From NCBI RefSeq assembly GCF_003971255.1, contig NZ_CP034660.1:62001-126000 (forward strand): a DNA stretch of 64,000 bases. Direction: 5' to 3'. Every line of letters begins with the position of its first letter. The stretch's first letter is position 1. The notes beneath the pieces are model-generated. The model was not told where the DNA came from, did not search any database, and saw only the letters and a program-made list of their open reading frames with translations. This stretch comes from Colwellia sp. Arc7-635. Lineage in GTDB: Bacteria > Pseudomonadota > Gammaproteobacteria > Enterobacterales > Alteromonadaceae. A program made the translations under genes and the position numbers. Below, piece after piece: positions 27,355 to 42,328 of the stretch.

Positions 27355-28410
27355 CTATTGCACGACCACTTGCTGCCCTTCATTCAGACGCTCAGCACCG
27401 CGAATAGCTACGTTATCGCCATCTTTTAAATCACCTTCAATGCTAACGCGATCAAAAGTGCCATTTTGCACAATTACCGGCAAACGGTGCACTTTATTGT
27501 CAACACCTATCTTCACTACATAAGTACCATCCATACGTAGGATCAGTGCATCGCGGTGGACAGTTAAGGTGTTTTTAGTTGCTTGAATGGGCACGGTAAC
27601 TTTAACAAGTTGCCCGGCAGCCCATGACTCATTTAAATGTGTAGGAATATTAATTCGCACTTCAAAGGTTTGTGATTTTGCATCTGCGCTTGGGATCAAG
27701 GCACTAATTTTAGCGTTAATCATCTGCCCACTAGCACTGATATTCAAACTATGGCCTTTACGGATAAACGCTAAGTATTTAATCGGCACAAACAGGCGTA
27801 CTTCTAAATGCTCAGTGTCGAGAAGTTTCAACAAGCTATCGCTACGATTAACATCAGTACCTGCTCGTACGATGCGTTCGGTAATAACACCTGAGAATGG
27901 TGCGGTGACATTGGCGCGTTGTATCTGGTCGTTAATCTGTTGTAATTTTAAGTCGGCAATTTCAATATCTGTTTTGGCTAAATCATACTGTGATTGGGTT
28001 TGATCAAGCTGAAACTGTGATGCCGAATTACTTTTTTTAAGCTTCTGTAAACGTTGTACTTCATTCTGTAAATAGTTGACATTAATTTTGGCACGCTTTA
28101 ATTGTGCTTGTTGCTCTAGCTGCATCAATTTTAAAGGTAATAAGTCCATTTTTACCAATACATCACCCGCTTGCACCATGCTACCGGGTTCAGCGAGCCA
28201 TTCAATACGACCATTAACACCAGCCGTAACAGGTACATATGAACGGCTGTGTATGGTGGCCATTAAATCAGTGGTCGCACTTAAATCCATTACCTTAACC
28301 TGATCAACTTTAACCGGTTTAGGTGCAGGACCTTCAGCGGCAATGGTATTCCCTGCAAGTAATATACTGGCACCGAGTATGGCGCTAATAACTTTTTTCA
28401 TTGTAAACAT
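27355..28410 (-). CDS. RND efflux periplasmic adaptor (membrane fusion protein)
   Basis: 351 aa, signal peptide (LLAGNTIAAEG). Typical adaptor layout: beta-strand and lipoyl half (GRIEWLAEPGSMVQAGDVLV), helical hairpin (residues about 95-165, LQLEQQAQLKRAKINVNYL-like), second lipoyl half (VTAPFSGVITERIVRAGTDV), beta-barrel and membrane-proximal domain. It lies 10 bp after the pump gene in the same operon; the order pump then adaptor is the reverse of the common acrAB order. No outer-membrane TolC-like gene is nearby, so a channel encoded elsewhere must be used. Confidence 0.9.
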   Translation of the reverse strand: MFTMKKVISAILGASILLAGNTIAAEGPAPKPVKVDQVKVMDLSATTDLMATIHSRSYVPVTAGVNGRIEWLAEPGSMVQAGDVLVKMDLLPLKLMQLEQQAQLKRAKINVNYLQNEVQRLQKLKKSNSASQFQLDQTQSQYDLAKTDIEIADLKLQQINDQIQRANVTAPFSGVITERIVRAGTDVNRSDSLLKLLDTEHLEVRLFVPIKYLAFIRKGHSLNISASGQMINAKISALIPSADAKSQTFEVRINIPTHLNESWAAGQLVKVTVPIQATKNTLTVHRDALILRMDGTYVVKIGVDNKVHRLPVIVQNGTFDRVSIEGDLKDGDNVAIRGAERLNEGQQVVVQ

Positions 28411-28420
28411 GGGACTTCCT

Positions 28421-31400
28421 TTAATGATTACTTGCTAATGATGTTGGCTCAGTATTAAGCTCATCAGCATGACTTTGTTTGTTACGACTATCAGTATCAA
28501 CGGCGGTGTCTTTGCCGTTGAGTCGCAATAAACTTGGAAATAGCACTAAGGTAAAAATAGCGCTGACGGTCATACCGCCAACAATCACGGTCGCTAAACC
28601 ACGATAAATTTCACTACCAACGCCTGGCATTAACATCAACGGCAACATACCAAATAAACTGGTTAACGTGCTCATATAAACCGGTCTAGCGCGAATGCGT
28701 ACGGCTTGTGCAACGGCGTTGTGAGTCGATAATCCTTCGCGTTCACCTTCCCGAGTTTGATCCACCAGTAAAATCGCGTTGTTAACCACTAAACCTAAGA
28801 GGATGATAAAGCCGATCATGGTCATTAAATCGAGCGATTGAAACGTAAACACATTCAATAAGTTTAACGCTAATACCCCACCCGCGACCGCCATCGGCAT
28901 AACGAGTAGTACTAATAAACTATCTTTCGCTGACTTAAATAATGCCGTCATCAATAAAAATAAAATCAGTAACGCTAGTACAAAGTTTTTCAACATATCA
29001 TTGATAGCATTAGCCATTTCATTGGCATTACCACTGAGTAAAATAGAAGAGTCAGCAGGCAGCAGAGCATTCATTGAGGGTAAAACGCTCGCTTCAATCG
29101 AGTTCAATGCCTCTTCAAGCGACATATCTGCTGGCGGTGAAACTTGTAAACTAATGGTACGTTTCCCGTCAACGCGACGTAATTGAGTTGGTCCCGCTGT
29201 TCGGGTTATTTCGGTAAGCTCGCCAATGGTTTGAACACCCGCTAATGGCGAATGAATCGGCAAAGAGGCAAGTTCGTCAGGTGTATTCCATTGTTTACCA
29301 CGTAAAATCACATTAACGCGGTCATTACCATCGAAGTACTCACTAATAAACAAACCACTAGTATAAGCGCGAATAGCATTAGCAACGTCACGACGCGTTA
29401 AACCTGCCTGTGAAATACGTTGGTCATTCGGTACGAGCTTAAGTTCAGGTTCAGATAAGCTCAAACTAGGGTTTGGAAAGGCGGTTGTGCCAGTCATATT
29501 TTCGTTAATAGCGTCAATGCCCGCTTGAGCAACGGTCATTAAACTTTCAATATCAGGACCTTTAATGTCGATATCAATAGTGCGGCCATTACCACCACCA
29601 GAAACATTGATCATTGAGCCCCTAAATATGAATACTTGTGTGTCAGGTAAATTAGCCATCACTTTCGTTCTGACTTCTTGCATTAGTTCTTCAACACGGG
29701 TTGGGTCATCAGCGTAAATAAAGCCACCAGTTGAACCTGAGCCATAAGAATAAAAGTTATAACTTTTTATTTTTGGCATTTTTTCACCGCTTAAATAAGG
29801 CGCCAAACGCTCTTTAACTAAACTAGCAAATTCATGTTCAATAAAGTCAACGTTACCACCTGGCGGCATATTCAGGCTGTAAAAAAAGCCATCGGTTGGG
29901 GCACGAGGCATAAAGTCGGTTTTAGGCATCATAAGCATAGTCACCAGAATCGAGCCACCGAGCAGGGCAGCTATCCAGCTAAAACGTTTGATGGTTGAAT
30001 TGGTTAATCGCATCACTAACAGAGTCAACTTTTCCCAATAATGGGCAAAAGGATCTGGCGTTTCATCCGCTTTTAACCAGTATTTGCTGGCGATAGGAAT
30101 AATAGTAATGGCCGAGACCAGTGAAGCAATAACGGCAATAGAAAGTGTCAGTGCTAAATCAGAAAATAGCTGGCCTTCAATGCCTTTCATAAATAAAATC
30201 GGCAAAAATATTGCGACACTGGTTGCGGTTGAAGCAAACAGCGCCCCCGTTACTTGCAAGGCTCCGCGCATAACCGCTTTGTTATTGTCCATGCCTAAAC
30301 TGCGCAACCTGACAATATTTTCTTGCACAATAATCGCCGCATCTAAAACTAAACCAACAGAAAAGGCTAAACCGGCTAGTGAAATAACATTTAAACTGCG
30401 ATCGAATGCCGCCAAGGTGATAAACGCCACCATTAACGAGACGGGAATAGTCGCAGCAATAATCAGCGTATTACGAATGCCGCGTAAGAATAACCAGAGA
30501 ATAATTAAGGCCAGTAATACCCCTAAACCTAAGTTATTTTGTACCAGCTCTAGGGCATTTCTTATATGTACTGACGCATCAAAGCTAAGCTCTATGACCA
30601 AACCTGCGGCTTTCATTGGGCCAGCATTGAGTTCTTTAATGGCTATATTAATTTCATCTAGCAAGGCAACGGTGTTGGCATCGTTTTGACGCTTCAAGGT
30701 GAAATAATAGGAAGGTTGCCCACTACGTAAATTAAAGCCAAAGCGATCAACTAAGGTATTTTCCACGGTAGCGACATCTTTTAAATAGATAGGTCGGTCA
30801 CCACTGAAACTGATGATCATATCGGTTAAATTTTCTACGCTATATTGCCCAGAAAATCGTACGGTATATTGTCGGCGACCAACATCTGCTACACCGGCAG
30901 AAACATCACTGGCACGAGCAATAGTTGAACTGATATCGGCAATGGATAAGCCCAGAGAAGCAGTACGCATGGGATCAAAAGTAATGCGTAATTCACGCGG
31001 GCGAGAGCTATTTAAGTTAACTTGCCCCATGCCTGGAATGCGCGAAAAACGTGGTTTAACTACGTCTTCAATTAACTTTTGATATAAGCCTAAATCTGTA
31101 TTTGCGTTATCGGGTAAGGTTTTAATCATTAATGACGCGGTATTTGGTCCACCGCGACCACCGCCAGCCGATACGACTGGCTCTATCGCATCTAAAGGTA
31201 GTGGCGGCGCTTGATTAAGATTATTAATCACATCAAGCATAGCGCGCTGCATATCAGCACCCACGTCAAAAGCGAGAGTTATATTACCAAAGCCGCGTTG
31301 AATGTTGGTCGTAACCTTAGTCACTCCTTGAGTGTTTTTTACAACATTCTCAATGGGTTCAATGATCACTGATTCCATTTCGGCAGGTGCTGCACTGCGC

Positions 31401-31552
31401 CAGCCTGTCGAAATAGTAATTTGTGGTTGTTCAATATCAGGGGTTAATTGAATGGGCAATTTAAGCACGCTCATAAAACCAAACACCATGACCAAAGCAA
31501 CAATGACAATAATGGCCGCTGGATTTTTTAAAGCGCTGCGCGTTAAGTTCAT
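28421..31552 (-). CDS. RND-family efflux permease (HAE1-like)
   Basis: 1043 aa, 12 membrane segments with two large periplasmic loops (AcrB layout). N-terminus MNLTRSALKNPAAIIVIVAL; porter-domain segment PQITISTGWRSAAPAEMESV. At the AcrB Asp407/Asp408 position TM4 reads GLVLDAAIIVQEN, giving Asp404 then Ala405; at the Lys940 position TM10 reads GLVVNNAILLVD, giving Asn924. The proton relay is thus reduced to one Asp, as in some RND subgroups, so proton coupling may differ from AcrB. Substrates are unknown. Divergence from the heavy-metal (CusA) group is clear because its Met pairs and motifs are missing. Confidence 0.9.
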   Translation of the reverse strand: MNLTRSALKNPAAIIVIVALVMVFGFMSVLKLPIQLTPDIEQPQITISTGWRSAAPAEMESVIIEPIENVVKNTQGVTKVTTNIQRGFGNITLAFDVGADMQRAMLDVINNLNQAPPLPLDAIEPVVSAGGGRGGPNTASLMIKTLPDNANTDLGLYQKLIEDVVKPRFSRIPGMGQVNLNSSRPRELRITFDPMRTASLGLSIADISSTIARASDVSAGVADVGRRQYTVRFSGQYSVENLTDMIISFSGDRPIYLKDVATVENTLVDRFGFNLRSGQPSYYFTLKRQNDANTVALLDEINIAIKELNAGPMKAAGLVIELSFDASVHIRNALELVQNNLGLGVLLALIILWLFLRGIRNTLIIAATIPVSLMVAFITLAAFDRSLNVISLAGLAFSVGLVLDAAIIVQENIVRLRSLGMDNNKAVMRGALQVTGALFASTATSVAIFLPILFMKGIEGQLFSDLALTLSIAVIASLVSAITIIPIASKYWLKADETPDPFAHYWEKLTLLVMRLTNSTIKRFSWIAALLGGSILVTMLMMPKTDFMPRAPTDGFFYSLNMPPGGNVDFIEHEFASLVKERLAPYLSGEKMPKIKSYNFYSYGSGSTGGFIYADDPTRVEELMQEVRTKVMANLPDTQVFIFRGSMINVSGGGNGRTIDIDIKGPDIESLMTVAQAGIDAINENMTGTTAFPNPSLSLSEPELKLVPNDQRISQAGLTRRDVANAIRAYTSGLFISEYFDGNDRVNVILRGKQWNTPDELASLPIHSPLAGVQTIGELTEITRTAGPTQLRRVDGKRTISLQVSPPADMSLEEALNSIEASVLPSMNALLPADSSILLSGNANEMANAINDMLKNFVLALLILFLLMTALFKSAKDSLLVLLVMPMAVAGGVLALNLLNVFTFQSLDLMTMIGFIILLGLVVNNAILLVDQTREGEREGLSTHNAVAQAVRIRARPVYMSTLTSLFGMLPLMLMPGVGSEIYRGLATVIVGGMTVSAIFTLVLFPSLLRLNGKDTAVDTDSRNKQSHADELNTEPTSLASNH

Positions 31553-31723
31553 TCAATTATTCCAAAAATTATACTAGTAGCAGTATAAATTGTTCTGCTA
31601 CTAGTGCGCGTAGGCTTAAGGCAAAGTGCCGAAATATTGCGATAGAAAGCACTTTTGATACATTTGATTACATTTGTCGGCCGATGTAGAGAATTCGAAA
31701 TATAAAGCTGACAGTTGATTTCC

Positions 31724-31754
31724 TAGCTTAGCGATTAATTTAATCGCTAAGCTA
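31724..31754. repeat. 14-bp perfect inverted repeat upstream of the RND operon
   Basis: TAGCTTAGCGATTA / TAATCGCTAAGCTA with a 3-nt spacer. The 17 bases TGATTTCCTAGCTTAGC overlapping its left arm (31717-31733) also occur inside the MITE at 16364-16380, so this may be a relic of a related element. It lies in the 31553-31948 gap, which otherwise holds only the second hairpin. Confidence 0.7.
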
Positions 31755-31788
31755 TTTATAAATAAAGTTTTTTCTGGCTATAGCAATG

Positions 31789-31835
31789 CTTTAGTTAATA
31801 AGTCGCTGCAGACAGTTGCGACTTATTAACTAAAG
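31789..31835. repeat. 18-bp perfect inverted repeat
   Basis: Arms CTTTAGTTAATAAGTCGC and its exact complement, separated by 11 nt. It lies about 114 bp beyond the stop of the small membrane-protein gene and about 240 bp upstream of the RND gene. It could be a terminator for the leftward unit starting at 32937, or part of the RND control region. Confidence 0.7.
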
Positions 31836-31948
31836 TTATTGTTGAGTACAATTATGTTAAGACTTTAGCTACTACGTTCTAGTAAAACAGTGATCCCTTT
31901 TAACGTGTTTTACTACTTACTTGCCGTAGCATTGATGTTGATAAGCGA

Positions 31949-32368
31949 TTAATCGGGCAACTTTTCGTCTAGTGCTTTTAAAGAACGTAAAAACAAACCT
32001 AAACCACCCATGGCTAGCACCAATATCACAATTAAATCAAACGATGTCATGGTCTTAAATGAGAAGCGTATTGATGAAATAACACCAAAAATTAAGCCGG
32101 TAATAGCGCCTAAAGAAAGTATCCAGCCAAAAATATTTCTACTATTATAAAAAATAAGCCCAACACCGAACATAAACGGGATCATCACCATACCGCTGGT
32201 AATATTATAGTTGCCACCCATGGCAGAAAAACCATATAAGCGCATACTCATACCAAAATTTGATGTTACTGTGATGGCGTTTAATAACATATAAAATCCA
32301 CCACACATCATGATCAGACCAATAAAAAAATGTCCTAATCCACCTGAAGTACCACCTGCTCCTTTCAT
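31949..32368 (-). CDS. Small integral membrane protein, family not recognised
   Basis: 139 aa with about four hydrophobic segments (FFIGLIMMCGGFYMLL; MVMIPFMFGVGLIFY; ILSLGAITGLIFGVI; LIVILVLAMGGLGLFL), a Gly-rich N-terminus and an acidic end. It follows the zinc-ribbon gene by 20 bp and shares its promoter in the 33101-33149 palindrome. I do not recognise a domain. Its linkage to a flotillin-type operon through a shared promoter suggests an envelope role. Confidence 0.7.
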   Translation of the reverse strand: MKGAGGTSGGLGHFFIGLIMMCGGFYMLLNAITVTSNFGMSMRLYGFSAMGGNYNITSGMVMIPFMFGVGLIFYNSRNIFGWILSLGAITGLIFGVISSIRFSFKTMTSFDLIVILVLAMGGLGLFLRSLKALDEKLPD

Positions 32369-32388
32369 GATTTTTCCTTTATGCTTTA

Positions 32389-32937
32389 TTATTTTTCAGC
32401 TGAGTACGGATCTTCAGCCAATAAGTAGGCTCTTAAATCAGCTTTATTAGGTTGTTGGTACAACCATTCACGTAGCGCTTTAATTTTTGTGTAAGTTTCT
32501 TCACCAAATTTATCTTGGTATATCTCAGCAAAGTTATCTTTCGTACTGTTAGTGCGAATGTTTCTCTGCCAATGCGTTGTTAAAACAGAGTTTAATGAAC
32601 CCGCTAAATTTTCTTTTTTAAGTAGCTCCCATTCACCCTTATCTAACCAAACACCACCAACACTTGCACTATAGTCAATGCGATGATCTGTGGTTGTTGA
32701 TAGTTTAAACTTACGCATAATAGTACCTGTTACGGGGCATAATAATGCTTGCTTTGATTCATCAATATCATATTGCAGGCTTTCATCAAATGAAAACTCT
32801 GGGTTGCGCTCTTTCCAAGCAACATAATCTTCAATCAAAATCCAATTACCGTGACAGTTAGTGCAAGTGTGCGATCTAAACTGGCCTTCGAGAAAACTAG
32901 GGGTTAATTCACCTTGCTTACAACTAGTACATTTCAT
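32389..32937 (-). CDS. Zinc-ribbon (zf-TFIIB-like) protein
   Basis: 182 aa. The N-terminal zinc ribbon has Cys3-x2-Cys6 and Cys25-x2-Cys28 (CTSC, CTNC) followed by HGNWIL, the pattern of zf-TFIIB proteins. A second, degenerate half (LLCPVTGTIMRKFK, then GGVWLDKGEWELL) repeats the theme; the GGVWLDKGE part is the hallmark of that family's C-terminal side. It is acidic, with no membrane segment. Function is unknown. It is transcribed leftwards, divergently from the YqiJ-like/flotillin/ATPase operon. Confidence 0.8.
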   Translation of the reverse strand: MKCTSCKQGELTPSFLEGQFRSHTCTNCHGNWILIEDYVAWKERNPEFSFDESLQYDIDESKQALLCPVTGTIMRKFKLSTTTDHRIDYSASVGGVWLDKGEWELLKKENLAGSLNSVLTTHWQRNIRTNSTKDNFAEIYQDKFGEETYTKIKALREWLYQQPNKADLRAYLLAEDPYSAEK

Positions 32938-33100
32938 TGCTAATACATCCTTTTAACATTTGATTAGTAATACAATAACCAATTTTTTGGCTATTGTTAA
33001 ATTATTGTCATTAGAATTATCCATTAAATCAAAATGCTAGATAGCTTTTAATTTAATGATTTATTACGGGTGCTATGATAATTTGTTGTTATAAATATGT

Positions 33101-33149
33101 TAATTACTATACCTCTTTGACATAATATGTCAAAGAGGTATAGTAATTA
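33101..33149. promoter_or_regulatory. 49-bp palindrome carrying two symmetrical divergent promoters
   Basis: Two 24-bp arms, exactly complementary, around a single central A (33125). On the plus strand TTGACA (33117-33122), a 16-bp spacer and TATAGT (33139-33144) make a near-consensus sigma70 promoter pointing to 33218. By symmetry the minus strand has the same hexamers (-35 at 33133-33128, -10 at 33111-33106) pointing to 32937. The two promoters overlap, so RNA polymerase could serve only one direction at a time. The arms could also be a regulator site or a cruciform. Confidence 0.75.
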
Positions 33150-33217
33150 GTCATAAACTTTATATTAAATAAAGTTAAACCTAGGTTAATGTTGGCTATT
33201 TGCTTTAAGGATGAACT

Positions 33218-33856
33218 ATGGAACAACTGTTTGAAGTCGCGTCACAATTTCCTACCGTAATCTATTCAGCGTTACTCGGTATCGTTGTTGTTTATTGGCT
33301 TGTTGGCGTATTAGGACTTATCGATCTCGATTTAGGCGGTGATGCAGACCTAGACCTAGATATCGACAGTGATGTTGATGTTTCTGTCGGCGGACTTACC
33401 GGTTTAATGCTCACTTTCGGACTCACAGGTGTACCGTTTACCCTCGTTATTAGCATCGTTATTCTTATTTGCTGGTTAATCAGCTTCTATCTACAATTTT
33501 ATCTACTGACTTGGTTACCCGATGGCTGGTTATATTATTTAATGGCAACCATAAGCTGTTGTGCAATTTTCTTAATATCATTACCGATCACCGCAATTGT
33601 TATACGACCGTTAAAAGGCATGTTTAAAAGCGTACAGGCAACGAGTAGTCATCATTTAGTGGGTAAAGAGGCGACTATTGCAACCAGTAGCGTCAGCGAA
33701 AAATTTGGTCAGGCGCGGGTATTTAATGACGGGGCAGAGATATTAATCGATGTGCGTTGTGACCCCGAACACATATTAAAAGCAGGCGATAAAGTACTGG
33801 TTATTGAGTACTTACAAGCAGGCCATGCTTATATCGTCGCACCTTATACACCCTAA
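33218..33856 (+). CDS. YqiJ-like membrane protein (OB-fold, NfeD-related)
   Basis: 212 aa. N-terminal membrane segment (VIYSALLGIVVVYWLVGVLG), a striking Asp-rich stretch (about residues 37-57, alternating Asp with Leu, Ile or Val), two or three further membrane segments, and a C-terminal cytosolic beta-domain (LVGKEATIATSS to HAYIVAPY) resembling the OB fold of NfeD/YqiJ proteins. Such proteins pair with flotillin-type SPFH proteins, and one follows here 85 bp downstream. It probably forms a membrane microdomain complex with it. The Asp-rich part might bind divalent cations (inference). Confidence 0.8.
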   Translation: MEQLFEVASQFPTVIYSALLGIVVVYWLVGVLGLIDLDLGGDADLDLDIDSDVDVSVGGLTGLMLTFGLTGVPFTLVISIVILICWLISFYLQFYLLTWLPDGWLYYLMATISCCAIFLISLPITAIVIRPLKGMFKSVQATSSHHLVGKEATIATSSVSEKFGQARVFNDGAEILIDVRCDPEHILKAGDKVLVIEYLQAGHAYIVAPYTP

Positions 33857-33941
33857 CTTTTTACAAAAATATAATTCAAACAAACCTAACTCATAAAGCC
33901 ACCTAGTGTGTGGCTGTTGTTTAAAATAAGAGGAAGAACAC

Positions 33942-35924
33942 ATGGTAATGGAACCACTTTATTTAGCGATAGGAATTGGCGCACTTTTCGTCTTTTCACT
34001 TTTAATCATGGTGGCTAAGTTTTATCACAAAGTAGAACAAGGCCAAGCATTGATCATCAACAAACTCAGGGCAGAGCCGGAAATAAGCACCACAGGTGGT
34101 ATGGTTATTCCTATTATCCATAAAAAAGAAATTATGGATATTTCGACAAAACGCATGATGTTAGAACGAAAAGGGCGTTCGGGTCTTATTTGTCAGGACA
34201 ACATTCGTGCTGACATAATTATTACCTTTTACATTCGCGTTAACGAAACTAAAGAAGACATTTTACGTGTTGCCAAACAAGTAGGTTGTGATCGTTCTTC
34301 GTACCCTGAAACGTTACAAGAGCTTTTTGAAGCGAAGTTTTCTGAGGCACTTAAAACGGTAGGTAAACAACTAAACTTTACCGAGCTATTTACTCAACGT
34401 GATATTTTCAGAGATAAAATTAAAGAAGTTATCGGCCAAGATTTATCGGGCTATGTACTAGAAGATGTTGCTATCGATTTTCTAGAGCAAACATCAATTC
34501 ATGATTTAGACCCAAATAACATTATGGACGCTGAAGGTATTCGACGTATTACTGAATTAACCGCGCAACAAAGCGTGCAAACTAATGATTTAAAACGCCA
34601 AGAAGAAATTCGCATTAAACGTCAAAACATCGATGCCAAAGAAAAGGGCCTAGAACTTGACCGCCAATTAGCTGATGCGCAAGCTAAGCAAACGCGAGAA
34701 ATATCTTCAGTACAAGCGCGCGAAGAAGCCGAAACCGCCAAAATTGTACAAGAAGAACTTTGTAAATCTGAGCAGGCAAGAATAGACACTGAACAAGTGG
34801 TTGCCGTTGCTGAAGAAAACAAACAGCGTGAAGCCGACATTGCTGAGCAAAATCGTTTTAGAGCCGTTGCTATCGAAGAAGAAAAAGTAAAACGTGCTCG
34901 TCAAGTTGAAGAAATTGACCGTGAAAAAGAAGTTGAAACGCTTCGTATCGACAAAGAAAAAGCACTAGAAATAGAACGTAAAAATATTGCTGAAGTTCAA
35001 CGTGAACGCATTATGGTTGAAAAAGGCGTTGCACAAGAAGAAGAGCTTATTAAAGATTTACGCGTAGTTTCTGAAGCTAATCGTCAAAAAGATGAGCAAG
35101 TAATTAAAGCGAAAGGCGAAGCAGAGCAAGCACTGGTTAAAGATATTGAATCAGCTAAAGCGCAAGAACAAGCTGCTGAACATATTGCTAGAAAAATGCA
35201 AACCATCGCAGAAGCTGAATTAAAAACAGCAAGTAAACAAGCAGAGTCTAAGAAAATATTAGCCGAAGGTAACCAAGCAGAAGCTGCGTCTCAAGGACTT
35301 GCAGAAGCTCAAATTACCTTAGCTCAAGCTGATGCACACGAAAGACAAGGTGAAGCGGAAGCTAAATCACTTGAACTTAAATTGACCGCTGAAGCGAAAG
35401 GTATACAAGAGAAAGCCTTGGCAGAAGCAACCGGTTTACGCGAAAAACAAGATGTGCTTAACGCCATGTCAGAACAAGCTCGAGAGTTTGAAACCTTTGG
35501 CTTACGTCTAAACCAAGAACGTGAATTAACTTTAGCGAAACTAGAGAACAGCGTTGATTTAGCCGAGAAACAAGCAGGCGTGTTAGCCACAGCATTGAGC
35601 GAAGCCAATATTAATATTATGGGCGGCGATGGCGAGTTCTTACGTCAATTTATGAGTTCTATTACAGTCGGTAAGTCGATTGATGGCTTAGTCAATGAAA
35701 GTGAGACAGTAAAAACCTTATTTAAAGATCACTTAAATGGCGACCGTAACATTATGGACGATTTAGGCGGTGTACTAGCGGGTGCGGCTACAACAAGCGA
35801 AACCATGAAAAACATCAATATGTCTAAGTTACTATCAACATTAAACAATGCTGACGATGCACAAAAAAGCATGTTGGCTAACTTGTTGAACTTAGGCGGC
35901 CAAAGCGCTTCAGATAAAAAATAG
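33942..35924 (+). CDS. Flotillin-like SPFH protein (YqiK type)
   Basis: 660 aa. One N-terminal membrane anchor (LAIGIGALFVFSLLIMVAKF), SPFH/band 7 domain (about residues 30-200, VEQGQALIINKLRAEPEIST onwards), then a very long Glu/Ala/Lys/Gln coiled coil (about 205-530) and a C-terminal tail with GGDGEFLRQFMSSITVGKSI. RBS AGAGGAAG precedes the ATG. Flotillin homologues scaffold membrane microdomains and influence fluidity and stress responses. It is followed by a giant ATPase gene after 106 bp, apparently in the same operon. Confidence 0.9.
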   Translation: MVMEPLYLAIGIGALFVFSLLIMVAKFYHKVEQGQALIINKLRAEPEISTTGGMVIPIIHKKEIMDISTKRMMLERKGRSGLICQDNIRADIIITFYIRVNETKEDILRVAKQVGCDRSSYPETLQELFEAKFSEALKTVGKQLNFTELFTQRDIFRDKIKEVIGQDLSGYVLEDVAIDFLEQTSIHDLDPNNIMDAEGIRRITELTAQQSVQTNDLKRQEEIRIKRQNIDAKEKGLELDRQLADAQAKQTREISSVQAREEAETAKIVQEELCKSEQARIDTEQVVAVAEENKQREADIAEQNRFRAVAIEEEKVKRARQVEEIDREKEVETLRIDKEKALEIERKNIAEVQRERIMVEKGVAQEEELIKDLRVVSEANRQKDEQVIKAKGEAEQALVKDIESAKAQEQAAEHIARKMQTIAEAELKTASKQAESKKILAEGNQAEAASQGLAEAQITLAQADAHERQGEAEAKSLELKLTAEAKGIQEKALAEATGLREKQDVLNAMSEQAREFETFGLRLNQERELTLAKLENSVDLAEKQAGVLATALSEANINIMGGDGEFLRQFMSSITVGKSIDGLVNESETVKTLFKDHLNGDRNIMDDLGGVLAGAATTSETMKNINMSKLLSTLNNADDAQKSMLANLLNLGGQSASDKK

Positions 35925-36030
35925 TTTCATCATCGTTCATTGTTTATTGACCATTGATATTAAGTACAAATAAGGCCATGTGCAGTTATCCGTAAAAAGG
36001 TAATTGCACAATAGCTTCATGGAGTTTTAC

Positions 36031-39000
36031 ATGACAGATAAGGATAGCGTCACTAATCAGGCTGTAGCAGAAGGTGGTTCATACGAACTTATTCAGCGCA
36101 GATTATCAGCCTTAGGAAGTGATCTTAACACGCAAATTAAGCAGCTAAACGACGAACGTATTGTTACGTTTGGCTCCACAGATATGAAAGTTGATGCTCG
36201 TGTACGAGTAAGAACTGAGCATAATTGTGTTGCGCGAGATATTGCCGCCATTGGCGATACGTTACTTTTTGGCTATAACGTCTTTTTAGGCTTAAAGCGA
36301 AATATTACCGTTGCCGATGTTTTTAGTTTGCATCAAATTAAAGGTGACGGTGATGACATCGAAATTATTGATGTGCCTCTTCAAGGCAGTTTTCTGGAAA
36401 ACCCTGAATTTGTCCGCGATTTTGATGAATTATATACCTATTACAAAAAAACCTTTCTAGCCCATGTTTATCGCCAAGGTAGTAAAGTGTTTGCCATATT
36501 TCGCATTGGTGAACGTCTTGACGATATTCGTGTATTTCGTTGGGGAATCGATGTAGATCAAAATGTTACCTATATTGATAACCGTGGCGAACGCGATATT
36601 AAACAACCTGAAAATTTTGATTTTGAATGGCATAAAGTATCACGCGAACAACAAGAGCAAGGTAAGCACCCGCATTTTAATTTATATGACACGCTTTTTG
36701 TTGAAGCCATTGGCGGCTCGATCACCCTTAAAGTTGAAAACAACACCGAAGCCGGACAAGGCATATATTCTGAACCGGTTGATGACGAACATCAGTCGAT
36801 AGACGACGCCGAAATTCATTACGCCCGCGTTGGCGAACTTATCTTATTGAAGATAAAACCGTACCGTGAAACCGAAACACGGCATTTAATTTTTAACAGC
36901 AAAACACAACAAGTGATCAGGCAAGATGCCATTGCTCATGCTTGTATTCAGCTACCTGAAGATCACGGTATTATTTTTCCTGGCGGTTATTATCTGCAAA
37001 GTGGTGAACATAAAAGCTTTGAAGACAATGCCGAAGACTTACAACTGCACCGCGTTGTAAAATCACCAAACGGTGAAGACTTTCTTTATATTTTCTATGA
37101 ACCAAATGAAGGGCAATATGCTTTATTTGGCTATAACCTGATCACCAGAACGCTACAAAACCCTATTTATGGCCACGGGCAAAGCTTGTATAACAATGGC
37201 CGTGCGGTTGTTTTTAATGCTGAATCAGAGCCTTCGCGCGTGCATGCTATGCAAATATGGCAAACACCATTTTGCAGTGAAGAGTTTGCCAGTAATCAAC
37301 CTGCGGATAACAGTTTTTTCGGCAAAATTGGTAACCCTGAACTGGTTCGAGGTATTTCAGATTTATACAGCGTAGCAAAACTGATCGCGGTTAAAACACC
37401 GAGTGCGCAGCATTTTAATGACTTGGTAAAAGAGTCTCAGCAAATTTTTGACAAGTATCACTGGCTTAATGACCAAGACCTTAGCCAATTGCATGATTTA
37501 ATCAAACAAGTCGCCACAACCTCAGAGTTGGTGTTAGACGAGTATGAAAAAGTCAGCAGCATTAAAGAAAATTCTGATGTTGTATTACTGCAAGCGCAAA
37601 AAAAACTTGCCGAGTTAAGCTCACAAGTTCAAGTTTCAATTTTTGATAATGCCAAGCAGTTTGTTGATAGCTTATCGGCTTTTGCAGAGTTTAAAGGGCA
37701 ATTAATTTCTCATAAAGAATTACGCTATATCGATGTTGAAGAAATAACATCGATGGAAAGTAACTTAGATACCTTAACAAAAGATCTTAGCCAAGCAACG
37801 GCTGACTTTCTGCAACAAGACGATGCCTTAGCGCCTTATCAAAAAACTATTATTGAATTAGAAAGCGCAATAGAAAACAGTGAATCTGTCACTGCACTAA
37901 AACCGGTACGTGAAGAAATAGCCACCTTGGTTGAAGGTTTGGAATTACTCAATCGCACCATGCTTTCGCTAGAAATTGAAGACAGCCGACAACGAACACG
38001 CATTCTCGAAGATATTTCAACGGTATTTAGCCAAATAAACCGCGTTAAAGCCAATGCTGATTTAGCCGCGAAAAGTGTCGGTAGTGAAGAAGCTCGCGCT
38101 GAATTTGGTGCGCGCTTTAAATTACTAGGGCAGAGTGTAACCAGTGCATTAAATGCCAGCGATACGCCGCAAGCTTGCGATCAGCAACTGTCTCAAATAC
38201 TGATCCAATTAGAAGATTTAGAAAGCCAATTTAGTGATTACGATGATTTTTATAATGAAATAATCACCAAAAGAGACGAAATATACGATAACTTCGAGCA
38301 GCATAAACAGCAGCTTATGGACGCTCAACAACGTCGCTGTCTTAACTTAATGTCTGCCGCCGAACGTATTATGGCCGGTGTTATTCGTCGTAGCCAATCA
38401 TTCAGTGAACAAGACAAATTAAACAGCTACTTTGCTGGCGACCCTATGGTAGCCAAGCTAAGACAATTAATTGCACAACTGCGCGAGCTTGACGACAACG
38501 TTAGAGCCGATGATATTGATGCACAATTAAAAAATGCCAAAGAACAGGGTATTAGAGCACTCAGAGATAAAACTGATATTTATTCAGCCGACGGTAGTTT
38601 AGTTAAAATAGGCGATCACCAATTTTCAGTAAACCGACAAAAACTAGAGCTAACCTTATTACCGCGTGACGGTGAAATGGTGCTACATGTTAGTGGTAGT
38701 GAATATTTTGAAAGCCTGGCACCCGAGTTATTCGCCGGTACTGAGTACTTATGGCAACAAGCGTTAATTTCAGAATCTGATCAGGTTTATCGCGGAGAAT
38801 ACTTAGCGGCAACGTTACTATTTGAAGCCGAACAATTAGGTAAAGCTAAACTCGATAACTTAATCGCTGCCGGTAATAATAATGAACTCGCTGATCTGGT
38901 AAAAAAAGCCGCTGAACCACGATATCAAGAAGGTTATGATAAAGGCGTACATGATGCCGATGCCGCCTTAATTCTAACGCAGCTACTTACCTTACGTGCC

Positions 39001-41259
39001 TCCATTGGCTTGTTAGCATATCCGGTGGCCGAGCGAAGACTTGCGGTACTGTTTTTCTCGACGGCGTTAGACAAAAATGCCCAAGAAGCACTATTACAAC
39101 GCAGCCATAATCTTCATATTATGGAAGAAACCTTTGGTGATAATCAATTACGTCAGCAGCTTATTCAAGAGCTAGCCACGTTATTAGACGCCTATCTAGA
39201 ACAGCAACCTTGGTTGCAATCAGACACGTTATTATCAGCCACTTACCTGCTACAAGAATTGGCTTTAGCAGAGCAAAATTTTGTTATAAAAGAAAGCAGC
39301 GCCGAGCTAGCAAGCCAGTTAAAAAGTCAGTTAAAACATAAAAGTTTGGACGCACAAGTCAGTGGCGCATTGTCGGGCTGTTCAACGCTAGCGCAAAAAT
39401 ATCAGCTGCATTGGGCGTGGTTAGAATCATTTTCTACGCACCAAGAAATGGCTGTGCATAGCGATGTGCTTGCTGAAGCCTCACTCTTTATGTTGATGGA
39501 AGAACAATGTCAGTTCTATACCTCACATGCCGACACTGAATGTGTTGTGGAAGGTTTACTCGGACAACATGGGCAAATTACCGATAGAAAAATTAACATT
39601 AACTATCAAGAGTTCATTACTCGACTTCGTCAATTTAGCCATGTGCATGTACCGGCATTTAAAGGTTTTCATGAGAAAAAACAAAAGCTATTAGCGGCGC
39701 AACGTAAACGACTACGTTTAGAAGAGTTTAAGCCCAATGCTTTATCTTCGTTCGTGCGTAACAAATTGATTAATGATGTTTATTTCCCAATTATAGGCAC
39801 TAACTTAGCGAAACAAATTGGTGCTGCCGGTAATAATAAACGCTCAGATTTAATGGGTTTATTATTGTTAATATCACCACCAGGCTATGGTAAAACAACA
39901 CTTATTGAGTACGTTGCCAGCAAACTTGGTATGACCTTTTTCAAGATAAATTGTCCATCAATCGGCCATGATCAGTTATCACTAGACCCTGCCCAAGCGA
40001 ATAACTCAACGGCTAAAAACGAAGTTGAAAAAATCAATTTAGCCTTCGAAATGGGCAACAACGTCATGTTGTATCTTGATGATATTCAACACACTAATCC
40101 TGAATTTTTACAGAAGTTTATCTCGTTATGTGATGGTTCAAGAAAAGTTGACGGCGTATGGAATGGCGAGAGCAAAACCTATGATATGCGCGGCAAAAAA
40201 TTCGCCGTAGTCATGGCGGGCAACCCTTACACAGAATCAGGAGAAGCATTTAGCATTCCTGACATGCTTGCCAACCGAGCAGACATTTATAACTTAGGCG
40301 ACACCTTAAGTGGTCGCGAACACGAATTCTCATTAAGTTTTATTGAAAACAGCTTAACCAGTAACGCTTACATTGCACCACTTGCTACACGTGAGATGGA
40401 TGACTTATATAACTTAGTTAAAATTGCTGATGGCGAACCCATTGCCACCACAGAACTCAAGCATAGTTATTCTCAAGCTGAAGTGAATGAAATAGTTGCG
40501 GTGATCCAGCGCATTCGTAAAATTCAAGAAACGGTTTTAAAAGCGAATCAACAATACATAGCCTCTGCTGCACAAGACGATAAATACCGCACTGAACCGC
40601 CGTTCAAGCTGCAAGGTAGTTATCGTAATATGAACAAAATGGCAGAAAAAGTTGTGCCGGTGATGACCGAAGAAGAAGTGGAACAACTGATTGTTGACCA
40701 TTATCGCGGTGAAGCGCAAACACTGACGGTGGGCGCTGAAGAAAACTTATTGAAACTGGCCGAACTGCGCGACAATCAAACCAGCGAACAAATCACACGC
40801 TGGCAACAAATTAAAGCCGACTTTGTTCGTCATCAAAGCCTAGGCGATAGTGACAACCCAGTAGCAGCTATCGCTAGTCAAATATCACTATTACAAAAGG
40901 GACTAACGCAAATAGGTGAGGCATTACAACAACCTGAATCTAAAGGTTTAGAAGTGTTAAATGAAACACTAGCCAGCCTTAAGCTACAAGTGAACGTTGA
41001 GCAGCCAGCACAACAAGAACAGCAAGAATTAGCACAAACACTGGCACTGTTTTCACAGCATATGGAAGCATTTCTCACGCCTTTAGTGACCACACTGCAA
41101 AGCAATAAGCATGTTGATATTGAAATGATAGAGGCGATAAAAGCGTTGAACTTGAACACAGGGAAATCAGTAAAAAGCTCTGAAACCCACATCCAAAAAA
41201 TCAGTAGAGAATTACTGCAAGATAGAGAAAATAATGCTGATGGGACGGTTGTTGATTAA
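36031..41259 (+). CDS. Giant AAA ATPase (DUF3686 / 'DNA repair ATPase' type)
   Basis: About 1742 aa. ATG 36031 is chosen because GGAG lies 6 nt upstream; in-frame TTG 36004 and ATG 36019 are alternatives. The N-terminal half (residues about 40-480) is beta-rich and resembles the DUF3686 region of proteins loosely called DNA repair ATPases. A long coiled-coil section follows (about 500-870), and near the C-terminus an AAA core: Walker A SPPGYGKTT (from residue 1282), Walker B NVMLYLDDIQH, sensor-1-like VVMAGNPYTESG. There is no nuclease or helicase motif. Operon position behind a flotillin suggests a membrane-linked remodelling ATPase; the 'DNA repair' label has little support here. Confidence 0.85.
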   Translation: MTDKDSVTNQAVAEGGSYELIQRRLSALGSDLNTQIKQLNDERIVTFGSTDMKVDARVRVRTEHNCVARDIAAIGDTLLFGYNVFLGLKRNITVADVFSLHQIKGDGDDIEIIDVPLQGSFLENPEFVRDFDELYTYYKKTFLAHVYRQGSKVFAIFRIGERLDDIRVFRWGIDVDQNVTYIDNRGERDIKQPENFDFEWHKVSREQQEQGKHPHFNLYDTLFVEAIGGSITLKVENNTEAGQGIYSEPVDDEHQSIDDAEIHYARVGELILLKIKPYRETETRHLIFNSKTQQVIRQDAIAHACIQLPEDHGIIFPGGYYLQSGEHKSFEDNAEDLQLHRVVKSPNGEDFLYIFYEPNEGQYALFGYNLITRTLQNPIYGHGQSLYNNGRAVVFNAESEPSRVHAMQIWQTPFCSEEFASNQPADNSFFGKIGNPELVRGISDLYSVAKLIAVKTPSAQHFNDLVKESQQIFDKYHWLNDQDLSQLHDLIKQVATTSELVLDEYEKVSSIKENSDVVLLQAQKKLAELSSQVQVSIFDNAKQFVDSLSAFAEFKGQLISHKELRYIDVEEITSMESNLDTLTKDLSQATADFLQQDDALAPYQKTIIELESAIENSESVTALKPVREEIATLVEGLELLNRTMLSLEIEDSRQRTRILEDISTVFSQINRVKANADLAAKSVGSEEARAEFGARFKLLGQSVTSALNASDTPQACDQQLSQILIQLEDLESQFSDYDDFYNEIITKRDEIYDNFEQHKQQLMDAQQRRCLNLMSAAERIMAGVIRRSQSFSEQDKLNSYFAGDPMVAKLRQLIAQLRELDDNVRADDIDAQLKNAKEQGIRALRDKTDIYSADGSLVKIGDHQFSVNRQKLELTLLPRDGEMVLHVSGSEYFESLAPELFAGTEYLWQQALISESDQVYRGEYLAATLLFEAEQLGKAKLDNLIAAGNNNELADLVKKAAEPRYQEGYDKGVHDADAALILTQLLTLRASIGLLAYPVAERRLAVLFFSTALDKNAQEALLQRSHNLHIMEETFGDNQLRQQLIQELATLLDAYLEQQPWLQSDTLLSATYLLQELALAEQNFVIKESSAELASQLKSQLKHKSLDAQVSGALSGCSTLAQKYQLHWAWLESFSTHQEMAVHSDVLAEASLFMLMEEQCQFYTSHADTECVVEGLLGQHGQITDRKININYQEFITRLRQFSHVHVPAFKGFHEKKQKLLAAQRKRLRLEEFKPNALSSFVRNKLINDVYFPIIGTNLAKQIGAAGNNKRSDLMGLLLLISPPGYGKTTLIEYVASKLGMTFFKINCPSIGHDQLSLDPAQANNSTAKNEVEKINLAFEMGNNVMLYLDDIQHTNPEFLQKFISLCDGSRKVDGVWNGESKTYDMRGKKFAVVMAGNPYTESGEAFSIPDMLANRADIYNLGDTLSGREHEFSLSFIENSLTSNAYIAPLATREMDDLYNLVKIADGEPIATTELKHSYSQAEVNEIVAVIQRIRKIQETVLKANQQYIASAAQDDKYRTEPPFKLQGSYRNMNKMAEKVVPVMTEEEVEQLIVDHYRGEAQTLTVGAEENLLKLAELRDNQTSEQITRWQQIKADFVRHQSLGDSDNPVAAIASQISLLQKGLTQIGEALQQPESKGLEVLNETLASLKLQVNVEQPAQQEQQELAQTLALFSQHMEAFLTPLVTTLQSNKHVDIEMIEAIKALNLNTGKSVKSSETHIQKISRELLQDRENNADGTVVD

Positions 41260-41404
41260 CAGTTGTAAATGATTTGGCTGTGATCTGATAGCCAAATTAA
41301 TTATGGCGTGATAAGCAAATATTATGGTTAATATATTAAAACAGAGATAGAGAATTACATGTGTTCGAATAAGGTGACTTGCTTCATACGTTATTGCATA
41401 AAGT

Positions 41405-42328
41405 ATGTCTGAAATATTTAATTATAAACAAAATCAGCCCATTACTTGGTTCCATAAAAAATTGGAAAAGTCGAATCAACATTGCCTGTATTGTGGGGAT
41501 TACATTGGGATAAATTCAGGTGTAAAGTCTAATAAAGAGCATTTGATTGCACGCAGATTTGTACCCCCTGAATATTTCACTTCAACAGATTTCAACTTCA
41601 TTTTCAGATGTTGTATACCTTGTAATAATCGTAAATCTAATATTGAACGACACTTGTCAACCACCAGCCTTCTTAGTAGTGATGCTAGGTTGCATGATGA
41701 AATAGTTGATTTTCTAGCATTAAATAAGGCAAATAAAGACTACCATCCTGAGAATAAAGGTAAGTTAGTTATTAATAGTACAGTTAAAAATAACTTCGAT
41801 ATTAATTCTCACGAAATGAAAGTTAATGGTGACTTTTTTTCTCCGCCTCAATCAGATAAAAGTTACGTTGAAGAATTGTCATACAGACACATACAAGGGT
41901 TGTTCTCATTGATGACAAGCAAAAATCCATTAAGTACAGAAGGTACGAGTATTTTGTCTGGCAAGTCCTTTCACATTTTTGGTATTTATCCTAAAAATGA
42001 TTGGGGGAACAGCCAAATAGCATACTTCATCCAAAAAACTTTAAGTTGGTCATCGTTTTGGAACGAAAGTGTAGCGAGAGGTTTTTTTAAAGCAATGATC
42101 TTAGGCCCAAAAGAAGAGCAAGATGGCTGGATGTGGGCTTTAGAGTGGAATAAATCTATCAGGATTATTGGTGCTCTTGTAAAAGAACAACATCTATCTA
42201 GAGTGTACCCTGATATCCCTGAAATAAAATGGTCTCCATGGATACAAAGTGAAAATGGAGAGATCCGTACGACAAAATACAAACCGCTAAATGGAGCAGA
42301 TACTTTATTTAGAGAAAATAGTGAGTAA
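41405..42328 (+). CDS. HNH endonuclease-like protein
   Basis: 307 aa. The N-terminal HNH region has Cys27-x2-Cys30 (CLYC), Glu45-His46 (KEHLIARRF) and Cys70-x2-Cys73 followed by Asn-Asn (CCIPCNN): the usual zinc-finger HNH arrangement. The C-terminal 200 residues are not recognised and may bind a target or partner. It lies 145 bp after the giant ATPase gene with no clear terminator, but its start lacks a strong RBS and the sequence is more AT-rich than its neighbours, suggesting later arrival. It could be a defence or mobile-element nuclease. Confidence 0.7.
   Translation: MSEIFNYKQNQPITWFHKKLEKSNQHCLYCGDYIGINSGVKSNKEHLIARRFVPPEYFTSTDFNFIFRCCIPCNNRKSNIERHLSTTSLLSSDARLHDEIVDFLALNKANKDYHPENKGKLVINSTVKNNFDINSHEMKVNGDFFSPPQSDKSYVEELSYRHIQGLFSLMTSKNPLSTEGTSILSGKSFHIFGIYPKNDWGNSQIAYFIQKTLSWSSFWNESVARGFFKAMILGPKEEQDGWMWALEWNKSIRIIGALVKEQHLSRVYPDIPEIKWSPWIQSENGEIRTTKYKPLNGADTLFRENSE

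Follow-up and report, generated by a model that had tools for sequence, protein, structure and literature searches.

A 49-bp palindrome in Colwellia sp. Arc7-635 amounts to more than a promoter pair: by its recurrence, the central sequence GACATAnTATGTC is an operator-like word. We consider it likely that this centre is the site of a predicted dimeric factor whose regulon, in Colwellia and its relatives, serves membrane maintenance; repression by that factor is held less firmly than the reading as a whole. The palindrome lies within the 64,000-nucleotide stretch of contig NZ_CP034660.1 that was analysed here (the window), to which the coordinates below refer.

A perfect palindrome holds two mirror-image promoter-like sequences

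The original prediction had described a 49-bp palindrome in which both strands carry TTGACA-N16-TATAGT on opposite sides of a single central base. Its coordinates and sequence were borne out, as the arms (33101-33124 and 33126-33149) were 24/24 paired and 100% complementary around base 33125 (Table 1). This was the longest perfect inverted repeat of the window at spacers of 0-5, the runner-up having an arm of 16. When the window was shuffled 40 times with its dinucleotides preserved, arms reached at most 13 (spacer 0-1), and base composition predicts 7e-10 such repeats. The element is single-copy in the 4.74-Mb genome, and the sole exact matches of its 14-mer half-arm were the two arms themselves.

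That this symmetrical, overlapping promoter-like pair faces the zinc-ribbon unit on one side and the NfeD/flotillin/ATPase operon on the other was likewise supported at the sequence level, by scan hits on both strands. Each site had 11/12 consensus matches, and the two were the best promoter-like sites in 28000-40000. Since the scan of that region gave 19 sites overall against 31 expected from shuffles, the promoter match alone is weak evidence. The two opposed sequences have overlapping elements, with the -35 boxes at 33117-33122 (+) and 33128-33133 (-) separated by 5 bp; given this geometry, two polymerases could not occupy the palindrome together.

For the 212-aa NfeD-like protein, neither Pfam nor NCBIfam gave a match at E <= 0.001, and a Pfam search at E <= 10 returned none within the cut-off. 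Pfam, NCBIfam and PDB sequence searches with the 660-aa flotillin-like protein were also without match.

The second long palindrome of the window (31724-31754, TAGCTTAGCGATTAATTTAATCGCTAAGCTA) has 15-bp arms around one base and a different motif. It sits between a small membrane gene and the gene for a 1043-aa transporter, which we take from its sequence to be of the RND type, and is possibly another operator or a terminator.

Table 1. Features of the palindrome region and loci of this genome that carry the core.
Feature	Position	Strand	Remarks
49-bp perfect palindrome	33101..33149	.	24-bp arms around A33125
Promoter-like TTGACA-N16-TATAGT towards NfeD/flotillin/ATPase operon	33117..33144	+	Start expected near 33151
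Mirror promoter-like TTGACA-N16-TATAGT towards zinc-ribbon unit	33106..33133	-	Start expected near 33099
17-bp operator-like core TTGACATAATATGTCAA	33117..33133	.	Recurs before membrane-type genes; very few matches to reversed controls
Strict 13-bp core GACATAATATGTC	33119-33131	.	Inside the 17-bp core
YqiJ/YuaF/NfeD-like membrane protein, 212 aa	33218..33856	+	Named from its place and its likeness to an operon class in passages of PMC11237479
Flotillin-like protein, 660 aa	33942..35924	+	Named from sequence reading and the operon class in passages of PMC11237479
Large AAA+ ATPase	36031..41259	+	DUF3686, DUF7902 and AAA domains
Zinc-ribbon protein, 182 aa	32389..32937	-	Zn_ribbon_TFIIB
139-aa membrane protein, second gene of divergent unit	31949..32368	-	KGAGGTSGG-type by sequence reading
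Core locus: this palindrome	33119-33131		Exact core
Core locus: NfeD-SPFH operon			Exact core
Core locus: 97-aa/pspA/pspC operon			Exact core
Core locus: YidC-like gene			Two exact copies 27 bp apart
Core locus: lipoprotein operon			Exact core about 4 kb before yjfI
Core locus: yjfI-pspA	G000:C1:3549541-3549593		Two copies 36 bp apart
Core locus: nhaA, then Band_7 gene			Exact core

The palindrome centre recurs upstream of membrane-type genes

Exact copies of the strict core numbered 9 at 7 loci in this genome (reversed control, 0) and 35 in five genomes (control, 0). A count over 98 relatives gave 283 exact sites in 50/98 genomes, versus 3 control sites in 3 genomes. At <=1 mismatch, TTTGACATAnTATGTCAAA matched 36/395 family genomes, with a reversed-control match seen in G011, and TTGACATAnTATGTCAA matched 35/35 genomes (control, 2 matches), 34 of these genomes having been preselected by their TTTGACATAnTATGTCAAA match, with G208 and G241 left out of the 36 and G009 added. 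By this recurrence, a candidate operator of the dimer type lies between or over the opposed promoter-like sequences.

All nine exact cores of this genome are beside membrane-type genes (Table 1). Pfam confirmed NfeD, PspA_IM30, 60KD_IMP, DUF2170, Na_H_antiport_1 and Band_7 on the core-bearing loci, and gave no match for the lipoprotein of the core-bearing operon. The YccA-like gene of this genome (Bax1-I; nearest NCBIfam model YccA, under its cut-off) has a copy of the 17-mer with two mismatches. Further core-bearing genes in relatives were htpX-like (Peptidase_M48 in G007, by likeness in G082), yqiJ-like, and a 310-aa SPFH-like gene.

Within the fetched loci, the 17-bp core at <=1 mismatch gave 106 distinct sites: 78 upstream of ten gene classes, labelled by peptide keywords, and 28 unlabelled, some of which (Pseudobutyrivibrio, Clostridia, a chlamydial MAG) are probably due to chance. 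Operator-like copies were also seen in three genomes (L171, L186, L287) upstream of genes that, from their sequence, are presumably carbonic-anhydrase-like; the copy at L171 has a mismatch within the strict core. Among the literature matches listed, judged by title and the start of the abstract, none was found to describe the operator or its regulon, and a literature search with two 13-letter core words matched nothing beyond a plant paper.

The core and its relation to -35 and -10 boxes

We compared the sides of the 78 labelled sites (of 106), counting as -10-like any hexamer with 4 of 6 positions matching, A2 and T6 required, at N16-18 spacing. Exact TTGACA was found on the target side at 72/78 sites and on the opposite side at 52/78, whilst TTGACA together with a -10-like hexamer was found on the target side at 46/78 and on the opposite side at 11/78; 8/11 of these opposite-side boxes belong to the NfeD/flotillin operon. 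The coincidence of core and -35 box was clear at yjfI (28/30) and NfeD/flotillin (12/12). Elsewhere it was weak: a -10-like box was present at 1/12 NfeD-SPFH, 3/6 spfh310, 1/4 yidC-like, 1/5 yqiJ and 0/2 YccA-like sites, and at the lipoprotein operon TTGACA was directed towards the gene in 0/6.

At yjfI-pspA, 16/16 readable Colwellia promoters (from 17 loci, L222-L238, with G003 excluded as its start was not matched) had a first copy of the core with TTGACA, followed by TAAATT. The second copy, 36 bp downstream (37 in G005), reads (A/G)CGACATAnTATGTCGT. Because this second copy keeps the core and has lost the letters of TTGACA, no -35 box being required there, the core is selected apart from the -35 box, and the place of this copy 36-37 bp downstream, so that the two copies flank the -10 box, suggests a repressor.

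The central base, read towards the target, was A at 4 and T at 8 nfeD_flot sites, and A at 20 and T at 10 yjfI sites; it was one-sided in small classes (for example yidC-like and yqiJ). Finding both A and T accords with double-stranded DNA.

A proposed mechanism

We propose that a dimeric transcription factor would bind the palindrome centre through the half-site TTGACATA. The gene-side half-site would double as the -35 box both here and at yjfI-pspA; in the palindrome both half-sites would do so, each with a TATAGT -10 box 16 bp further out. One bound dimer could then cover both -35 boxes, so that the zinc-ribbon unit would be silenced jointly with the NfeD/flotillin/ATPase operon. Membrane stress would release both promoters, and at the freed site the polymerases would still compete, given that the promoters overlap completely. 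From the DNA sequence we infer protein binding, repression, the membrane-stress signal and the firing of both promoters, repression because the core overlaps the -35 box and, at yjfI, has a second copy beyond the -10 box. An activator or a dual regulator may act at the core.

Candidate regulators

A recognised regulator is coded on neither side of the palindrome. The nhaA copy of the site has the gene of an AsnC/Lrp-type protein next to it, but this protein is unlikely to be the regulator. A 13-bp palindrome of 5-3-5 form suits the AsnC/Lrp family, the core was present in 31/32 genomes having an AsnC-type ortholog of at least 80% identity, and in 24/30 fetched loci the AsnC-type gene and an nhaA- or mnhA-like gene were divergently arranged, the core being nearby (with one mismatch in G009). 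However, the correlation between ortholog and core tracks the family tree, and in 6/30 loci there was no site near the AsnC-type gene; the nhaA-like gene was its neighbor in two of these (G047 and G027) and not in the others (G017, G028, G023 and G055). Nor was the AsnC-type ortholog found wherever the operator set occurs. Core-bearing genomes without it include some with 7 to 10 copies (G050, G063, G069, G073, G093, G097), and as the core is also present in 19/66 genomes in which no ortholog reaches 80% identity, the AsnC/Lrp-type protein was not supported as a general regulator.

In G009 (L307, among L294-L310) the gene divergent to the AsnC-type gene is not nhaA but an mnhA-like gene, which we take from its sequence to encode an antiporter subunit; its operator has one mismatch.

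In several genera (L160, L181, L196, L103, L107, L109, L110) the gene immediately upstream of the NfeD-SPFH operator encodes an XRE-domain protein, presumably with membrane segments by our reading of its sequence. Close full-length matches to this protein were found in G004, G015, G016 and G009 of 17 genomes, with a distant second one in G015. As this genome gave no close full-length match, and short HTH or C-terminal stretches only, the membrane XRE protein was rejected as the regulator. The 17-bp core could itself serve as bait for finding the regulator.

Conservation at NfeD/flotillin operons

An NfeD-like ortholog was found in 22 of the 58 genomes searched. The expected conservation of the palindrome upstream of orthologous operons held for the core (at <=1 mismatch) and the NfeD-ward promoter, which were present at 17/22 loci, but not for the full mirror image: a mirror -10 box with long arms was found in 6/22 (G000, G015, G016, G161, G164, G280) and in Colwellia maritima (L100). 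At the G017 locus the core was present only with two mismatches, and in G147, G114, G028 and G077 it was not found in the stretch read upstream of the NfeD ortholog. TTGACA-N16-TAT(A/G/T)GT pointed towards NfeD at 17/17 loci with the core, and also in C. maritima; at the 17 loci the TTGACA on the NfeD side was always intact, with mismatches confined to the far side. The site was at the same place in three genera, going by their handles (g1, g38, g76).

Counted with C. maritima, 7/18 loci with the core at <=1 mismatch had the mirror promoter and 11/18 had no mirror -10. The -10 boxes of the mirrored loci were equal, with TATAGT on both sides in 7/7, and the NfeD-ward box of the unmirrored loci was TATGGT (10/11) or TATTGT (1/11). 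The divergent gene was present and the exact mirror absent in G218, G040, G313, G055, G122, G181, G200, G429 and G361. G133 also had no exact mirror, and in G102 there was no mirror and neither a divergent zinc-ribbon nor a KGAGG gene was seen; the divergent-gene labels were assigned by hand, and G133 and G280 carry none. In C. maritima and in G161, G218 and G040, the site is flanked on its divergent side by the gene for a homolog of the 139-aa membrane protein.

Because 11/18 loci are without the mirror -10 box and in 5/22 the core is degenerate or missing from the stretch read, co-regulation on the zinc-ribbon side is not general. By these comparisons the putative divergent promoter is a lineage feature, superimposed on a conserved operator-like site. 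The mirrored state requires 3 changes on the tree and may have had one origin plus losses.

These loci bear on another explanation, that the palindrome alone forms a two-way switch through mutually exclusive promoters, with no dedicated regulator. With the -35 boxes 5 bp apart the polymerases would have to exclude each other, and the mirrored state does bring equal -10 boxes to the two sides. We nevertheless think a switch of this kind quite improbable: the mirror promoter is missing in most loci with the core, the core precedes many other genes where the -10-like box is mostly one-sided, and its second copies are without TTGACA and would be needless for a pure promoter pair. Since the core recurs and the -10-like box is mostly on the target side, the symmetry would firstly be a property of a dimer-type site rather than of a self-contained two-way switch, and the regulon accords better with the two sides being repressed in common.

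Paired changes in the palindrome arms

Changes in the arms were examined in the seven mirrored sites (the six genomes named above and C. maritima), which are related sequences. In these, 96.4% of cells paired, and 5/24 pairs had changed on both sides. Their covariation score was 0.167, whereas shuffles averaged 0.059 and reached the observed score in 0/500, with slid versions scoring 0.008-0.079. A 13-sequence alignment that included six unmirrored loci gave a weaker result (covariation reached in 2/500, the number of pairs changed on both sides in 55/500).

The flanks of the core were then taken regulon-wide, after near-copies at 85% identity had been removed per class, which left 55 of the 78 labelled and 26 of the 28 unlabelled sites. 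At offsets 9-14 the pairing was 0.464, against 0.318 for permuted partners (0/2000); further out, at offsets 15-24, the labelled sites taken together gave a null result, with 1075/2000 shuffles reaching the observed value. Within single classes the pairing at offsets 9-14 was weak or null, the shuffles reaching the observed value (of 2000) being 114 for NfeD-SPFH, 39 for spfh310, 1400 for yjfI and 859 for nfeD_flot. As the flank pairing of nfeD_flot was null after removal of near-copies, its covariation rests on the test of the seven mirrored sites. Perfect arms were <=11 at 61/78 labelled sites.

The paired changes could reflect selection for symmetry, or homogenisation of the arms by template switching. 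Template switching is a known process, by which the arms of short inverted repeats become identical and spacers can invert (PMC8604942, PMC7202029); the cases described there are coding genes of yeast and mutation in E. coli, whereas here the arms hold a promoter. As a tentative account of the mirror, possible rather than probable, replicative template switching would have started at the small operator palindrome and carried one flank, -10 box included, across to the other side, turning a one-way promoter into a mirror pair whose new member drives the neighboring genes; homogenisation would then hold the arms paired as the sequence drifts. Signs of such an origin are that flanks vary between loci yet pair within a locus, regulon-wide, that both members of some arm pairs have changed, and that mirrored loci carry TATAGT where unmirrored ones carry TATGGT or TATTGT. 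Whether a divergent promoter can arise in a single step from a replication error at an operator is a question for which the mirror-image promoter is naturally suited.

It is very unlikely that the long arms serve to extrude a cruciform under negative supercoiling, which would tune both promoters. Flanks that are locus-specific yet self-complementary at offsets 9-14, the paired changes on both arms of the mirrored sites, and a stable single-strand hairpin (-22.5 kcal/mol, z -11.5) would all suit a cruciform, but the perfect arms are short at most labelled sites, the class-wise permutations were weak or null at offsets 9-14, and pairing was null at offsets 15-24.

A plasmid search with the 1.7 kb surrounding the palindrome found no homologous match, nor did a search of viral contigs with the degenerate long palindrome find one. 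Although a long perfect inverted repeat between genes might be a mobile repeat, a transcription terminator or an RNA hairpin, we rejected these as scarcely credible, because the element is present in one copy rather than several and keeps its place in three genera, the terminator scan gave no terminator-like match at the palindrome, Rfam had no match in 30000-42000 at gathering scores, and the central base may be A or T towards the target, as expected of double-stranded DNA.

Comparison with known systems

Many bacterial regulator-target pairs are known to have divergent, overlapping promoters that share an operator. The palindrome resembles these in its facing promoter-like sequences, central dimer-type site and predicted exclusion of polymerases. 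It differs in that -35 box, spacer and -10 box are exactly mirrored over 49 bp, and in that no recognised regulator flanks it.

The predicted regulon would unite PspA and NhaA with scaffolds of the NfeD/SPFH and flotillin types, a YidC-like insertase and an AAA+ ATPase; in a relative an HtpX-like peptidase would join them. In E. coli, the targets of the Cpx membrane-stress regulon include htpX and yccA. The kinds of target overlap with those found here, through the htpX-like gene (M48 peptidase, G007) and the YccA-like gene with its two-mismatch 17-mer. The operators are unlike, as the Cpx operator is a direct repeat, GTAAA-N5-GTAAA, and the one described here is an inverted repeat.

The gene content of the palindrome operon is of the same kind as that of PSP/flotillin neighborhoods for which YqiJ/YuaF, band-7/flotillin, an AAA+ ATPase, a zinc ribbon and DUF2170-PspA are described in passages of Ravi et al. 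(2024; PMC11237479). The argument of those passages is from gene neighborhoods and domains, whereas here a shared operator-like site would tie such operons to pspA and nhaA loci at other places in this genome. If this is true, the shared operator would open to test the proposal that flotillin operons cooperate with PspA encoded elsewhere.
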